From NCBI GenBank assembly GCA_001779925.1, contig MFEK01000016.1:43375-78503 (forward strand): a stretch of 35,129 bases of DNA, in the 5' to 3' direction. This DNA comes from Candidatus Doudnabacteria bacterium RIFCSPHIGHO2_01_FULL_46_14. Lineage in GTDB: Bacteria; Patescibacteriota; Doudnabacteria; UBA920; 2-01-FULL-46-14. The notes under the pieces were generated by a model. That model had not been told where the DNA came from, did no database searches, and saw nothing but the letters and a program-made list of their open reading frames with translations. Position 1 is the stretch's first letter. Each line of letters opens with the position of its first letter. The position numbers and the translations under genes are program-made. Below, in pieces: positions 7,189 through 22,558 of this stretch.

Positions 7189-9657
7189 CTAAGTTTTGGC
7201 TTCAGTTGGCGAAAATTGCGTATTCGGTGCTGTGGATATTAAAAAATCCGGAAATTCCTGAAAATATTTCATGAATGACTGGTCATAGTCAGTGAGGATC
7301 CGCGGATCGAGAATAAATACCTGTTTGCCGGCTCCCGGGGCAGCCAAAAAGCTAACCAGGGTTCGGTGAATCTGGTTTATGGCGCGCGGCAGTACAGCAT
7401 CCACAAAGGCGCTGTGGTCATCCAGTCCCAAAAGGGGCGGTTTGGAACCGCGCGCTTCAAAAGGCAGCTTGAAGATCACAAGGTTCTGAAGCTCGGGGAG
7501 GATTTTCCAATGTTTCACGAGCGCATGAAGCGTTAAAAGGAGGATCAGATTCTTTCCGGAAAAATTTTTCAGCTTTTTTTTAAGCGCGCCCACGCTGCCG
7601 GAAAATTTGTAAGCAAAAATTTCTGTCCCATCTTCCATCCTAACCTGAGAAAGCGCCTGATACATCTCGGCAAGCTTGGCCTCATTCGGCAATAAAAGCA
7701 GTGTGCGTCCGGAAAAACTCCGGGCGAACGCGATTTGCTCAGGGACGCTGGAATTTTTAGAAAAAATCTTTACTGGAACGGAAATGGGTTTGATTTGCTC
7801 GAAACATTTCTCGTAAACATAATCCGCCAATCCCAGGCGCTTTTGAAAATACGCGCGCGACACTGCCGGCAGATTCGTATCAACGATGGTCATTGACGAG
7901 AAATTTTTTATGAATCCCGCCCAAACCGGTTTCAGATCTCTGGACTGAAGATTGAGATCCACAAAGTCCGCGTTAAACTTTATCCAGGAAATAGTCGATT
8001 CCTCTGAGGCAATAAAAAAAATCTCCAAAAACATACTCAGTGCAGCCAAAGCTGTTTTCAAAATTTCAAGTTCCAATTGCAATTCACGGCTCGCCAGCTT
8101 CCGCTCGCGCTCGAGATACATCTCAAATTTCTTCAGTTTGTCTTTTAATTTATGTGCCGGGTGAAACAATTTTTGAAATCGTTCCTGGTTTCGTTCACGC
8201 TCGTCAATCACCAAATTTTCGGAAAATTCTCCATCTCGTTTTAGATACACTAAATGCAGAACTCCAAAAAACAAATCAAACTCGTTTAACATTTGCCCCA
8301 CCTCTGGCGGCATTTCTCCGGTCATGTTCGGCTGGCCTTCGTCCACAGGAAAAAGCGGCGCAAACAGATTGCGCACTTTGCGCAGATTCCAGATCTGCAT
8401 TGTTGTCGCGGTAAATTCATCCTCAATCGCGGACAAATCAAATAATATTGACTTCACCGATTTACCCAATACTCCCAATCTCCCCAGTTCAAACACAGTC
8501 TCCAAATCCCCAATCCGCGGCCCGGTATTTTTTTTATTAAGCTCCTGCACATACGCACAATCATGCCGATGGCACAGATCCAGGTTCACGGATAAATAAT
8601 GCAGAAATCCAATTTCATCCGGCGACCATTTTATGCGCGACAGATCAAGGCTCGCCTCGGTTTCTCGAAGGATGAGAACTTTGGCCAGGATTTTCGCCAT
8701 CTCGGGGGACAGCGCCTCTTCGAAAAGAAGCCAGGAAAAACGCTTCTCGCAAAGCGCGAGCCTGGGATTTACCAGTTTTTGCGTCCGAAAATCTGCCAAA
8801 AAAGCGCTATGCGACAAGCCGATTACCGCATTTTCTTTGCGTGCGGCCAAATCGGCCAGCGCTTCTCCCATGCGGTTAAACGACAGTGGGTAGCAAAAAA
8901 TCGTTTTATCAGCGAAATCAAGGTCAATGACCCCCTCTTTCTTCTCCCCCTCATGAGGGGGAGATTGAGTAGGGGTCTGGACTCCTCCCCTTAAGCTAAG
9001 GGGAGGCTGGGTTGGGTTATGAACCACTGGCAAATCTTGTATCAAATCCAAAAAATTAATATCAGACTTGCCCAATACCCGCTTAACCTCTGTCTGCAGT
9101 TTCTGCGGATAATCCAAAAACGCATTCAAAATCGCAGCCAGCACCCGAGCTGTGTTCTGACAATCCACAAGAGCGCGGTGCGGGATATCTTTGAGCACAT
9201 GGTAATTTTCCGCCAAAGATTCCAGAGAATGCGATTCCAAGAGCGGCGCCAGCGTGCGCGCTACCTCCAGAGTATCCAGGGATGGATTTTTCAATCGCAA
9301 TCCCTGGTTTCGCAAATACCCCAGGTCAAACTCGACATTATGCCCCACAATGATGCTGTCGTCGAGAAATTGCGTCACTTGCTCTTTGAGGTCTTTCCAT
9401 TTCGGCGCAGTCTTTAACTCTTCTTTTTTAATGCCGGTGATGGCGAGTGCGGTCTCTGATGGCTCGATTTCCGGATTGACCAATGACGAAAACGTTTTTC
9501 CAAACTTCACCTTAACAATCTTAGTCCCCGAGCTTGTCGAGGGGCTACAATATAATTCAAACTCGCAAACACCCACCTCCATGATCCGCCCCCGCTTCAT
9601 ATCCAAATCCGTCGTCTCCAAATCCACCGCCATAAATTTTTTCTGGTATTCCGCCAT
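7189..9657 (-). CDS. DnaQ-like DEDDh exonuclease fused to a degenerate DinG-like helicase region
   Basis: 822 residues. The N-terminal third is a complete 3'-5' exonuclease domain: VDLETT (Asp12, Glu14), GHNVEFD (Asp111), and HRALVD (His160, Asp165). The rest follows the DinG (XPD-like) plan: a Cys-containing segment CHRHDC near the place of the iron-sulphur cluster, a late LPFEARGSKPPLLG and AFVDAVLPRAINQIHRTL, and VFILDPRILTDYDQSFMKYF. But no Walker A is visible, the DEAH position reads FDLSAIEDE, and the usual QGxGRLIR has become QIHRTLVS. So it looks like an active nuclease with an inactive helicase body. Two dispersed repeats are translated in frame (residues 37-45 and about 211-241). 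The upstream region carries the palindrome also found before the PaaX/Cas2-like gene. Confidence 0.8.
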   Translation of the reverse strand: MAEYQKKFMAVDLETTDLDMKRGRIMEVGVCEFELYCSPSTSSGTKIVKVKFGKTFSSLVNPEIEPSETALAITGIKKEELKTAPKWKDLKEQVTQFLDDSIIVGHNVEFDLGYLRNQGLRLKNPSLDTLEVARTLAPLLESHSLESLAENYHVLKDIPHRALVDCQNTARVLAAILNAFLDYPQKLQTEVKRVLGKSDINFLDLIQDLPVVHNPTQPPLSLRGGVQTPTQSPPHEGEKKEGVIDLDFADKTIFCYPLSFNRMGEALADLAARKENAVIGLSHSAFLADFRTQKLVNPRLALCEKRFSWLLFEEALSPEMAKILAKVLILRETEASLDLSRIKWSPDEIGFLHYLSVNLDLCHRHDCAYVQELNKKNTGPRIGDLETVFELGRLGVLGKSVKSILFDLSAIEDEFTATTMQIWNLRKVRNLFAPLFPVDEGQPNMTGEMPPEVGQMLNEFDLFFGVLHLVYLKRDGEFSENLVIDERERNQERFQKLFHPAHKLKDKLKKFEMYLERERKLASRELQLELEILKTALAALSMFLEIFFIASEESTISWIKFNADFVDLNLQSRDLKPVWAGFIKNFSSMTIVDTNLPAVSRAYFQKRLGLADYVYEKCFEQIKPISVPVKIFSKNSSVPEQIAFARSFSGRTLLLLPNEAKLAEMYQALSQVRMEDGTEIFAYKFSGSVGALKKKLKNFSGKNLILLLTLHALVKHWKILPELQNLVIFKLPFEARGSKPPLLGLDDHSAFVDAVLPRAINQIHRTLVSFLAAPGAGKQVFILDPRILTDYDQSFMKYFQEFPDFLISTAPNTQFSPTEAKT
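8935..9027. repeat. Two family A repeats inside the exonuclease gene
   Basis: Two adjacent hairpins: CCCCCTCATGAGGGGG with tail, and CCTCCCCTTAAGCTAAGGGGAGG-type sequence with a GGGTTGGGTT tail. They are read in frame as VVHNPTQPPLSLRGGV and QTPTQSPPHEGEKKEG, a Pro/Gly-rich linker between the nuclease and the helicase-like part. Confidence 0.8.
9523..9549. repeat. Family B repeat fragment inside the exonuclease domain
   Basis: CCCCGAGCTTGTCGAGGGG is an imperfect palindrome matching family B. It is translated in frame as CSPSTSSGT in the loop between the first two strands of the exonuclease fold. Confidence 0.65.
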
Positions 9658-9682
9658 AGTCTCTAGAATTAATCAAAATACA

Positions 9683-9712
9683 AACATATCACGATCGTGA
9701 TATAGCTGTCTT
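9683..9712 (-). promoter_or_regulatory. Palindromic operator and promoter before the exonuclease gene
   Basis: A perfect 18-base palindrome with core TATCACGATCGTGATA spans 9686-9703. On the minus strand it fills the 18-base spacer between AAGACA (9707-9712) and TATGTT (9683-9688), a possible -35/-10 pair for the gene starting at 9657. The same arrangement precedes the PaaX/Cas2-like gene. Confidence 0.65.
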
Positions 9713-10286
9713 ATAAAATTTTCTTAGCTGTGAAATGCCTTTTTAATTCTTTATCAATATCAGTATAGCTGACTTCTGCATAGGTCGTATACTTTTCAAT
9801 ATTATAATAATCAGCGACAAAGGATAGCTCTTTACGGCAATCAAATGGGTAGGCAAAGACGCTTCGCTGAATATTATATAAGTCAAGCTGTTTCAATTTA
9901 CGCCGCAGATAATCTCGCTCATGGCGCATATCCTCCGGGATATCAAAAATGAACAGCCGCCATTTCCTGTCCCACTCTCCTGACTTGGCTAGTTGCAAAT
10001 TAGACATTTGAATTTTTCTATACCTAGCCTTGCCCTTATTCAAAATTCTAACTATCCACCCATTTTCGGTTTTTGTTAGAGCCACATATCCTTTTCTTTT
10101 CAAACGCCTAACCTCATGGTTAAAATCCTTCTGACGGAACAAATAATGACCGGCTCCCACCACAGCGAAAACTCCCACCACAGCGGCCACTGGTGAAACC
10201 ATGGCAATGCCGCCGAGGGCGGCGGCCAAAATTGTCTCAGCAAATTTTTCTTCTACTGGTTTATGAAATCTGCTTTTTGCTAACAT
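9711..10286 (-). CDS. PaaX/Cas2-like regulator with membrane-like N-terminus
   Basis: 191 residues. Residues 18-50 are hydrophobic (ILAAALGGIAMVSPVAAVVG and following), enough for a membrane helix or hairpin. Residues about 55-95 look like the end of a winged helix (EVRRLKRKGYVALTKTENGW). The C-terminal 90 residues match the Cas2-like ferredoxin fold of PaaX-type repressors: WDRKWRLFIFDIPEDMRHERDYLRRKL, then QRSVFAYPFDC, then ADYYNI. In true Cas2 the first strand ends in an Asp; here IFDIPE has it. No CRISPR array or cas1 is visible, so a DNA-binding regulator is more likely than spacer acquisition. A 32-base perfect palindrome lies two bases before its ATG, suggesting autoregulation. It sits between recA and a DnaQ-like nuclease gene. 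Confidence 0.7.
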   Translation of the reverse strand: MLAKSRFHKPVEEKFAETILAAALGGIAMVSPVAAVVGVFAVVGAGHYLFRQKDFNHEVRRLKRKGYVALTKTENGWIVRILNKGKARYRKIQMSNLQLAKSGEWDRKWRLFIFDIPEDMRHERDYLRRKLKQLDLYNIQRSVFAYPFDCRKELSFVADYYNIEKYTTYAEVSYTDIDKELKRHFTAKKIL

Positions 10287-10288
10287 AA

Positions 10289-10322
10289 GACAACTGTATC
10301 ACGATCGTGATACAGTTGTCCA
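10289..10322 (-). promoter_or_regulatory. 32-base perfect palindrome, operator before the PaaX/Cas2-like gene
   Basis: Positions 10289-10320 are a perfect palindrome; half-site GACAACTGTATCACGA. On the minus strand it overlaps a possible promoter, TGGACA (10317-10322), 18 bases, TACAGT (10293-10298). The core TATCACGATCGTGATA is identical to that at 9687-9702. Binding here would block RNA polymerase. Confidence 0.7.
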
Positions 10323-10337
10323 GTTGAGAAATTTACT

Positions 10338-10538
10338 CTACGCTACCTTTGGGGTGTTTTCTTTACTTTCTGCTATTGAAATTGCATTCTTTAACGACTC
10401 TCTGGTATTAGCTCCCATATATCGGACAGCTTTTTCTAGGACTGCCATATCAATATCTACCACCATCTCATCAAGCTTTGAAGCTATTTCGTATGCCTTG
10501 GCTTCATTTTCCGGATTATTTTCATTTTCAAATCCCAT
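10338..10538 (-). CDS. Small acidic helical protein downstream of recA, unknown function
   Basis: 66 residues from ATG 10538. The sequence is rich in Glu, Ala and Asn and predicted helical (NEAKAYEIASKLDEMVVDID, VLEKAVRYMGANTRESLKNA). I recognise no family; it does not resemble RecX, the usual small partner of recA. It begins 12 bases after the recA stop and ends 51 bases before the PaaX/Cas2-like start, so it is probably on the recA transcript. No Shine-Dalgarno site is visible. Confidence 0.6.
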   Translation of the reverse strand: MGFENENNPENEAKAYEIASKLDEMVVDIDMAVLEKAVRYMGANTRESLKNAISIAESKENTPKVA

Positions 10539-10549
10539 AAACAATGTTG

Positions 10550-11584
10550 TTAATTATTATCTTCCGCCTCTTTTCCCTCTTTTACGGCCTTTCTTATGGC
10601 CGCATCAATTTCTTTGGTGACTTTGGGTGTGTCGCGCAGGAACTGTTTGGCAGTTTCACGGCCCACTCCGAGGCGCTCCTCGCCGAACAGATAAGTGTTG
10701 CCGGTTTTGCCAATGACAGCGAGCGCCACTCCAGTATCAAGAAGGTCGCCGGAATAAGAAATGCCTTCGTTCCACATGATATCAAACTCGCAGGTCCGAA
10801 ACGGAGCCGCGACTTTGTTTTTCACGACCTTGACCTTCACCCGGTTGCCGATGACCTTTTCGCCCTGTTTGATCTGGGCAGACTTGCGGACCTCTATACG
10901 CACTGAGGAATAAAATTTCAAAGCCTGGCCGCCGGTGGTGGTTTCCGGATTGCCAAACATCACGCCAATCTTCATGCGAAGCTGGTTGATGAAAATAACA
11001 GTCGAGCGGGATTTGGAAATAATCGCCGTGAGTTTGCGCAAAGCCTGGCTCATCAGCCGGGCATGCAATCCCATGTGGCTATCACCCATCTCGCCTTCAA
11101 TCTCGGCCCGAGGCGTAAGCGCGGCCACGGAATCTACGACGATGAGATCAACAGCATTGGAACGCACCAAGGTTTCGACAATGTCGAGCGCTTGCTCGCC
11201 GGTATCCGGCTGAGAGATGAGCATCTCGTCGAGTTTCACTCCGATTTTTTGCGCGTAATCCGGATCCATGGCATGCTCCGCATCCACGAACGCGGCCTGC
11301 CCGCCTCGTTTTTGCACCTCGGCTATCATGTGCATGGTCAGCGTGGTTTTCCCCGATGATTCGGGACCATAAATTTCCACCACCCGGCCTTTCGGGATGC
11401 CGCCCACGCCGAGTGCCAGATCCAAGGAAATAGAGCCAGTTGGCCAGCTTTCCACATTCATGGTCCGGGCTTCGTTGAGCTTCATGATCGAGCCATCACC
11501 GAATTTCTCCCGGATCTGCTGAACCGCAGAGTCCAGAGAATCGTGCTTGATATCTGCTTGAGTTTCTTCCGAAGTTTTAGCCAT
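10550..11584 (-). CDS. recA: Recombinase RecA
   Basis: 344 residues, full length. Walker [11 protein letters not shown] (about 73-82), the [22 protein letters not shown] segment with loop L1, [22 protein letters not shown] with loop L2, and a C-terminal acidic tail ([10 protein letters not shown]). It forms filaments on single-stranded DNA for homologous recombination and for DNA-damage signalling. The start at ATG 11584 lies directly behind an extended -10 promoter, so the mRNA is probably leaderless. Genes downstream on the same strand are the small 66-residue protein and the PaaX/Cas2-like gene. Confidence 0.98.
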
Positions 11585-17912: not shown

Positions 17913-17958
17913 ACATGGATTCACTTACTTCACGGCCGTGAAGTAAGTGAATCCATGT
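17913..17958. repeat. 46-base perfect palindrome, family E
   Basis: Half-site runs from ACATGGATTCACTTACTTCA to the centre at CGG/CCG (17935/17936). The core TTCACGGCCGTGAA is shared in altered form with 18725-18758 and 22099-22112. It lies between two terminators, with no gene in the gap. Confidence 0.9.
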
Positions 17959-18064: not shown

Positions 18065-18640
18065 ATGACCGAATACCATCGCAACTGGCCGGCAATTTGC
18101 GCGTGTTCTGACCCTGACCTCAAATACCTGATCACCTGGACCAACAATAAAGCCGTTTTAAAAGGCTTGAGACAAGGCTTTTCACCGCTGTTTTCAGAAG
18201 TGCCAACGCCCTTACGTGTCCCGTACTCGGCACTGCAGCGCCGCGCGCTTCTTAGTGCAGTCGAGCGCGATCGAATGGAAGGCACCCTCGGCGACCCCAA
18301 TGGCGGACCAACGTTTGCATCTCTGTTGTACTATGAATCGTTCGTCGCAAAACTGCACGCTTTCCCTTTCCCGAAAAATAAGATAATAAAATGGAAATAT
18401 CGAGGCGAGGGAAAGGCCGCAGATATCCCCGAAGAAATCCTCGCACAACTCCGCGGCAAAAAACTCCGGGCCGGAATGACCGTGGTATATAAAAAGAAAA
18501 CCTATGTCGTCCTGGGACTCGGTGCTGAGAAGAGCACTGATTTCGATGACATGGCATTCCTCGGGACCATTTTGAATCGAAAGTTTTATTTCACGGACAT
18601 GTATTTGGTACCCGTAGGATACATTGATCTCGACGCATAG
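18065..18640 (+). CDS. Protein of unknown function
   Basis: 191 residues from ATG 18065, with GAAAGGAGCG (18051-18060) as the ribosome-binding site. No signal peptide or membrane helix. Notable stretches are TWTNNKAVLKGLRQGFSPLF, YSALQRRALLSAVERDRMEG, and a beta-rich end MTVVYKKKTYVVLGLGAEKS and FYFTDMYLVPVGYIDLD, which could be a small barrel. No family recognised. It has its own terminator and is probably a single-gene transcript in the plus-strand island. Confidence 0.7.
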   Translation: MTEYHRNWPAICACSDPDLKYLITWTNNKAVLKGLRQGFSPLFSEVPTPLRVPYSALQRRALLSAVERDRMEGTLGDPNGGPTFASLLYYESFVAKLHAFPFPKNKIIKWKYRGEGKAADIPEEILAQLRGKKLRAGMTVVYKKKTYVVLGLGAEKSTDFDDMAFLGTILNRKFYFTDMYLVPVGYIDLDA

Positions 18641-18724: not shown

Positions 18725-18758
18725 ACTCATAGGATTCACGGTCGTGAATTCTATGAGT
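18725..18758. repeat. Near-perfect palindrome, family E
   Basis: Arms ACTCATAGGATTCACGG and TCGTGAATTCTATGAGT differ from perfect pairing at two positions. Like 17913-17958 it directly follows a terminator. Confidence 0.8.
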
Positions 18759-22064: not shown

Positions 22065-22098
22065 GATTATGAATTTTATTTACTAGTGACCCACAGAC

Positions 22099-22112
22099 TT
22101 CGCGGCCGCGAA
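22099..22112. repeat. Family E palindrome core
   Basis: TTCGCGGCCGCGAA is a perfect 14-base palindrome, with looser arms (ACAGAC left, TCCTATGT right). It lies between the Nudix and MFS genes and relates to 17913-17958 and 18725-18758. Confidence 0.65.
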
Positions 22113-22114
22113 TC

Positions 22115-22558
22115 CTATGTCTCACTCTTCCATTTCAAAAACAACTCAATTGTCTGCAAGCCGTCGGAAATAAGCGGGAGGCTTGGAGCATCCTGAGGCT
22201 TAATCCATTTGAAATCACTGTGTTCGTCAGGGTTGGCTTTGGCCTCTGGACGCTCCAAAAAATTTATATAAAAACAGTGCATTACAAATTCTCGATCTGG
22301 TTTGCGAACAAAGACTTTTTTGACAAATTGTAGAGCCTCTACCGGCAGATCGATTGACGCTTCCTCTTTGATTTCTCTGATCACTGCCTGCATTGGAGTT
22401 TCGCCTGGGTCAACCATGCCGCCTGGCAGACACCATGTGCTGCCATCTGTTTCCCACGGCTGCCGCAGGAGTAGCAGAATCTCTCCTTCATGTTCAATAA
22501 AACAGGTTGCGAGATCGAATTCCGACTGAAAATTTTCCGGTTCTTGTTCAAAAATCAT
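22115..22558 (-). CDS. Nudix hydrolase
   Basis: 147 residues. Nudix box GGMVDPGETPMQAVIREIKEEAS (about 45-67) fits Gx5Ex7REUxEExGU except that Ser replaces the final Gly. Around it are LCLPGG-like WCLPGG and a later YINFLERPEAKANPDEHSDFKWI. The family cleaves nucleoside diphosphates linked to another group; the substrate cannot be told, though the SDFKWI end is seen in MutT-like 'house-cleaning' members. It overlaps the membrane-protein gene upstream by four bases and forms an operon with it and a second Nudix gene. Confidence 0.88.
   Translation of the reverse strand: MIFEQEPENFQSEFDLATCFIEHEGEILLLLRQPWETDGSTWCLPGGMVDPGETPMQAVIREIKEEASIDLPVEALQFVKKVFVRKPDREFVMHCFYINFLERPEAKANPDEHSDFKWIKPQDAPSLPLISDGLQTIELFLKWKSET

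Follow-up and report, generated by a model that had tools for sequence, protein, structure and literature searches.

A PaaX/Cas2-like gene bracketed by its own palindromes beside recA in a Doudnabacteria genome, one copy of a unit that recurs in Patescibacteria

The stretch of DNA analyzed here (the window) comprises 35,129 nucleotides from Candidatus Doudnabacteria bacterium RIFCSPHIGHO2_01_FULL_46_14 (assembly GCA_001779925.1, contig MFEK01000016.1, positions 43,375 to 78,503 of the forward strand) and carries, beside recA, a short gene for a protein resembling both the PaaX regulator and Cas2, with a palindrome on either side. The unit consists of three features:

9711 to 10286, minus strand: gene for a PaaX_M (Cas2-like) protein of 191 amino acids (aa), winged helix and Cas2-like ferredoxin fold (PF20803, E=4.5e-21)
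10289 to 10320, no strand: upstream palindrome of the unit, a perfect one of 32 base pairs (bp) that overlaps the PaaX/Cas2-like gene's putative promoter
9679 to 9710, no strand: downstream palindrome of the unit, perfect in its 18-bp core (9686 to 9703) and imperfect outside it

The window holds two exact copies of the core TATCACGATCGTGATA (9687-9702 and 10297-10312), where 0.04 would be expected with up to three mismatches allowed. Pattern and palindrome searches thereby bore out an earlier interpretation made from the letters alone (the sequence-only reading), which had placed the core twice in the window, once in the 32-base perfect palindrome and once at 9686-9703. A whole-genome pattern search gave no exact copy elsewhere in the 1.08-Mb genome; a third near-copy with one mismatch (C14:21896) lies within a glycosyltransferase open reading frame (ORF) and was taken as chance. 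The two palindromes form strong hairpins and are identical to each other at 25/30 positions. As only 16 bp separate the stop codon of the PaaX/Cas2-like gene from the second palindrome, the pair brackets the gene, a layout that the sequence-only reading had overlooked. The same palindrome-gene-palindrome layout is found at the ortholog in genome G002 (75% identical protein), with the downstream palindrome at the equal position, and the substitutions that separate the upstream palindromes of the window (ACAACTGTATCACGATCGTGATACAGTTGT) and of G002 (ACAACTATATAACGATCGTTATATAGTTGT) are symmetric, paired bases having changed together. It is very unlikely that such palindromes act as bidirectional terminators of transcription flanking short genes, as their hairpins and the location of several of them between convergent genes might suggest; no terminator-like site was called at the window palindromes, the upstream copy overlaps a promoter, and the sequences are gene-specific and matched on both sides.

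The PaaX_M domain (PF20803) was found in 40/40 relatives tested. The window protein and the other members of its alignment set gave no match to PaaX_C (PF08223), a domain present in longer homologs from Pelagicoccus and Omnitrophota. With 19.8 bits the window protein falls below the cut-off of the PaaX equivalog model TIGR02277 (264.55 bits), and it also remains below the cut-offs of the Cas2 models PF09827 (18.4 vs 23.8 bits) and TIGR01573 (19.7 vs 24.5 bits). An AlphaFold2 model of the 191-aa protein (predicted local distance difference test, pLDDT, 84.5) aligns over residues 5-186 with E. coli PaaX (PDB 8a39; Z 9.0, 163 residues, root-mean-square deviation 6.5); residues 10-98 are similar to MarR/PadR-type winged helices and the C-terminal half is similar to Cas2 structures. 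The membrane anchor proposed by the sequence-only reading is not established, because the hydrophobic N-terminus coincides with the helices that open the winged helix in the model, which has low confidence there. The absence of Cas1 stated by the sequence-only reading holds for the entire host genome, on which ground a link to clustered regularly interspaced short palindromic repeats (CRISPR) was rejected; Cas1 (PF01867) is likewise absent from 13/14 other genomes tested. The nearest named relative of the protein (L130, 75% identical) and those that follow it (L131-L136) are all from Candidatus Doudnabacteria, genes of the kind are present in 37/116 Patescibacteria genomes sampled (about one third), and a genome of the window's class may hold up to 11 copies. 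Viral contigs and the records of phages and plasmids yielded no relatives.

To define the layout across genomes, PaaX_M genes were collected from the window's class, other Patescibacteria and further phyla (discovery set, n=95). A matching palindrome pair (score >=58) is present around 75/95 of these genes vs 3/300 control ORFs, and many of the 20 genes lacking one encode long PaaX proteins from other phyla. As the score threshold was chosen after inspecting this first set, a fresh, evenly drawn phylum sample served as the test: the pair surrounds 15/17 new proteins of up to 235 aa and 0/5 longer ones (236-249 aa). The palindrome-gene-palindrome layout thus surrounds most PaaX_M genes of Patescibacteria that encode proteins of up to about 235 aa. 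Outside Patescibacteria, the pair is seen at one Omnitrophota gene and, in Pelagicoccus mobilis, at three paralogs out of four. When approximately 780 kb of the window's genome (G000) and of G010 were searched without bias for similar palindromes in pairs, seven pairs came out, and four of these enclosed PaaX_M genes. The neighbours of the units elsewhere are unrelated genes in the loci sampled, where no search aimed at paa genes was made; they include alanine racemase, tRNA synthetases, a PilB-type ATPase, BipA, PPDK and others. About half of the closest protein pairs have flanking genes in common, and about half lack any flanking homology though their palindromes match; in one pair, L044/L040 (G021/G010), the palindromes are 30/30 identical, the proteins are 68% identical, and homology stops at the palindromes. 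One unit, L068 (G019:C14), has two tandem upstream palindromes, suggesting that local multiplication of palindromes is possible.

The palindromes also diverge together with the protein they surround. Identity is 85% between the left and right palindromes of one gene and 45% between those of paralogs, and palindrome distance follows protein distance among the 75 relatives (Mantel rho 0.27, p=0.001). At a locus common to G074 and G107 both palindromes have changed jointly, with 31/34 positions identical within each genome and 13-14/34 between them. Judged by these sequence comparisons, each palindrome is specific to its PaaX/Cas2-like gene.

The downstream palindrome lies a median of 27 bp from the PaaX-type stop codon (10-90%: 14-67) and a median of 128 bp (46-352) from the start of the next gene, which is convergent in 19/72 units. 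Upstream palindromes carry a sigma70-like signal, with at least 10 of 12 matches in 19/75 and a mean of 8.79 vs 8.08 in shuffles; downstream palindromes have little promoter signal. In the window the promoters of the sequence-only reading, with their 18-base spacer, are borne out weakly: the first site scores 9/12 (TGGACA-18-TACAGT) and the second 8/12 (AAGACA-18-TATGTT). The view that the palindromes are promoters or operators of both adjacent genes stands in part: they are specific to the PaaX/Cas2-like gene, overlap its promoter region and co-diverge with it, but the second copy is the downstream end of the unit. The downstream palindrome as a general operator of the next gene was rejected, given its tie to the stop codon and the convergent next genes.

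These data bear on the main rival explanation, in which the protein is an autoregulated PaaX-type repressor with paired operators before and behind its gene, which would serve for looping or for tight autorepression and at times to control the next gene, while the gene would move only by general rearrangement and horizontal transfer. The PaaX fold with its winged helix and the promoter signal of the upstream palindromes are in its favor; the downstream palindrome, however, keeps to the stop codon even where the next gene is convergent and carries little promoter signal, and the neighbours are unrelated housekeeping genes.

The surroundings of the window unit allow its presence to be compared among relatives. 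It lies between two genes outside the unit:

7189 to 9657, minus strand: DEDDh exonuclease with a degenerate DinG-like C-terminal part, the ancestral neighbour of recA
10550 to 11584, minus strand: recA (PF00154, E=2.9e-136)

The DEDDh gene comes directly after recA in G001, of the same genus, and in G003, of the same family, with neither a PaaX gene nor a palindrome in between; recA and the DEDDh gene are likewise neighbours in G004 and G005. By comparison of these loci, the window unit was inserted between recA and the DEDDh/DinG-like gene. A second unit, L074 of G036, is missing from the matching locus in G038. Absence of a unit at orthologous loci of relatives, a general criterion for transposable elements, is therefore seen both at the recA locus and at the L074 locus; a search for closely related empty sites in another genus yielded two genomes only. 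The DEDDh gene adjoins recA across two families (G000-G005), and its long DinG-like C-terminal part scores far below the DinG cut-offs.

The same comparison speaks against the proposal of the sequence-only reading that the PaaX/Cas2-like regulator and the DEDDh exonuclease form a two-gene DNA-processing or defence module. A palindrome does lie upstream of both genes in G000 and G002, but the two are not conserved together among relatives, the DEDDh gene stands by recA in G001 and G003 where the unit is absent, and units elsewhere have other neighbours. Such a module now seems extremely unlikely, and the lack of conservation of the pair is an outcome that the proposal itself had named as its refutation.

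Beyond the flanking pairs, related palindromes occur alone. Most of the nine unit families examined in G000 and G010 have one to five extra cognate palindromes unaccompanied by a gene (range 0-5 per family); these are dispersed and intergenic, often between convergent 3' ends, and some are just upstream of genes. Those in the window, at least two in number, belong, or probably belong, to another family:

18725 to 18758, no strand: ACTCATAGGATTCACGGTCGTGAATTCTATGAGT, a solo palindrome from a second family that matches the flanks of its cognate PaaX unit, G000:C16:160328-160901, at 30/34 positions
22089 to 22122 (C16:65463-65496), no strand: second solo copy in the family of the same unit, 30/34
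17916 to 17955, no strand: perfect 40-bp palindrome and probable solo relative of this unit family, with TTCACGGCCGTGAA as its related core

The palindromes at 17916-17955 and 18725-18758 share the core TTCACGG(C/T)CGTGAA and flank an ORF of 191 aa (18065-18640, plus strand) with no Pfam match. A 40-bp palindrome of G036 recurs, asymmetric positions included, with 40/40 and 39/40 identity at two other places, neither of them at the PaaX gene. For the autoregulator explanation the solo copies directly upstream of genes are as expected, whereas those between convergent 3' ends are not, and exact 40-bp asymmetric copies exceed the needs of operator selection.

REP-like (repetitive extragenic palindromic) solo copies in intergenic regions could also be hairpins maintained by an unrelated Y1 transposase of the RAYT (REP-associated tyrosine transposase) kind, the PaaX genes being passive beside them. 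This is barely credible, as no Y1 transposase (PF01797, Y1_Tnp) was found in G000, G001, G002, G003, G010, G021, G074 or G107, which include four family-f1 genomes, and the palindrome sequence follows the PaaX paralog. Neither the window protein nor its relatives matched Y1_Tnp; PaaX_M was matched instead. Two further repeats were observed. An approximately 80-bp repeat of two similar halves (G074, L259:2028-2107) has more than 20 whole or partial occurrences in G074 and G107, though neither genome has a Y1 transposase, and a separate GTGTCCAATTCGCGAATTGGACAC-like palindromic repeat is dispersed in G010 (C4 118868, 324315, 324642) with no PaaX gene.

At the level of sequence, then, the pairing, the recurrence, the co-divergence, the presence or absence at loci, the unrelated neighbours and the solo cognate palindromes hold. 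We lean slightly towards explaining them by a recurring unit, of which the window holds one copy, in which a PaaX_M gene is bracketed by gene-specific palindromes of 32-40 bp and which is selfish or formerly mobile in the manner of REP/RAYT. The protein would bind its own flanking palindromes through the winged helix and act as a repressor at its own promoter, the one overlapped by the upstream palindrome; it may also help, or once have helped, to move or copy the palindrome-bounded unit. The unit would then be a low-copy selfish element acting like a REP/RAYT pair, with a protein unrelated to RAYT.

Several observations weigh against this selfish-unit explanation. A test for target-site duplication over the 75 units gave no signal (best z 1.9), although some element classes make none. 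The protein has no known transposase or recombinase domain, only the Cas2-like aspartate, which ordinary PaaX regulators keep too. Neither a pair of recent full copies identical to each other nor a strain-level insertion was observed, and the shared flanks in about half of the closest pairs imply that many copies are vertically inherited. In G003, where one palindrome was searched genome-wide, only the two flanking copies were present. Lastly, an equal layout occurs in what looks like plain regulation: a TrpR/YerC-like gene in the dTDP-rhamnose operon of G010 (L220:7431-7855; G010:C4:47431-47855) is flanked by 30-bp palindromes that are 28/30 alike, and is probably an ordinary autoregulator with its operators. 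Because of this operator-gene-operator arrangement the autoregulated repressor stays a serious rival, credible though rather less than probable.

A bolder form of the mobile-unit explanation, which we regard as tentative, is that the unit represents a minimal mobile element of a new class, whose single protein, of winged helix and Cas2 fold, would recognize, and mobilize or copy, the long palindromes bounding its own gene. Such an element would be widespread in Patescibacteria and present in Verrucomicrobiota, and might be a relic of the origin of the partnership between Cas2 folds and palindromic repeats. Family models would name these genes 'PaaX regulator' or 'Cas2'. If they are palindrome-bounded units, such names are misleading, reduced genomes contain selfish DNA of a new kind that has escaped notice, and a testable case becomes available in which a Cas2-fold protein has palindromic repeats as its partners without CRISPR; if the autoregulated repressor is right, Patescibacteria hold a large set of co-diverging protein-operator pairs. 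In a literature search whose scope did not extend to preprints and most subscription journals, no paper was found that joins PaaX with Patescibacteria or Cas2 or that describes the unit.

Comparison with known systems places the unit near several of them. Like IS200/IS605-type elements it is small, holds a single gene, has ends able to form hairpins and shows no target duplication; unlike them, its ends are long perfect palindromes and its host genome has no Y1 transposase. With Cas2 and Cas1-Cas2 adaptation in CRISPR it shares the ferredoxin-like Cas2 fold, the conserved first-strand Asp and partly palindromic repeats (approximately 36 bp in CRISPR), but the protein is below the Cas2 cut-offs, the host lacks Cas1, and the 'repeats' bracket the gene itself. 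The PaaX repressor (TIGR02277, PF20803, PDB 8a39) has the same winged helix and Cas2-like central domain, with likely DNA binding and autoregulation, whereas the proteins considered here are about 160-230 aa long, far below the equivalog cut-off, multicopy and palindrome-flanked. The REP-RAYT system (PMC3686654) shares with the unit a gene lying between its cognate palindromes, a palindrome class that diverges with the gene, and intergenic solo copies. Since there is neither a Y1 protein in the unit nor a Y1 gene in the host genome, the unit is not a member of the REP-RAYT family: a winged helix and a Cas2 fold stand in place of the Y1/HUH transposase that the REP-RAYT gene encodes, the palindromes are 32-40 bp long and lack the GTAG/GTGG tag, and the copies number 2 to about 7 as opposed to tens to hundreds.

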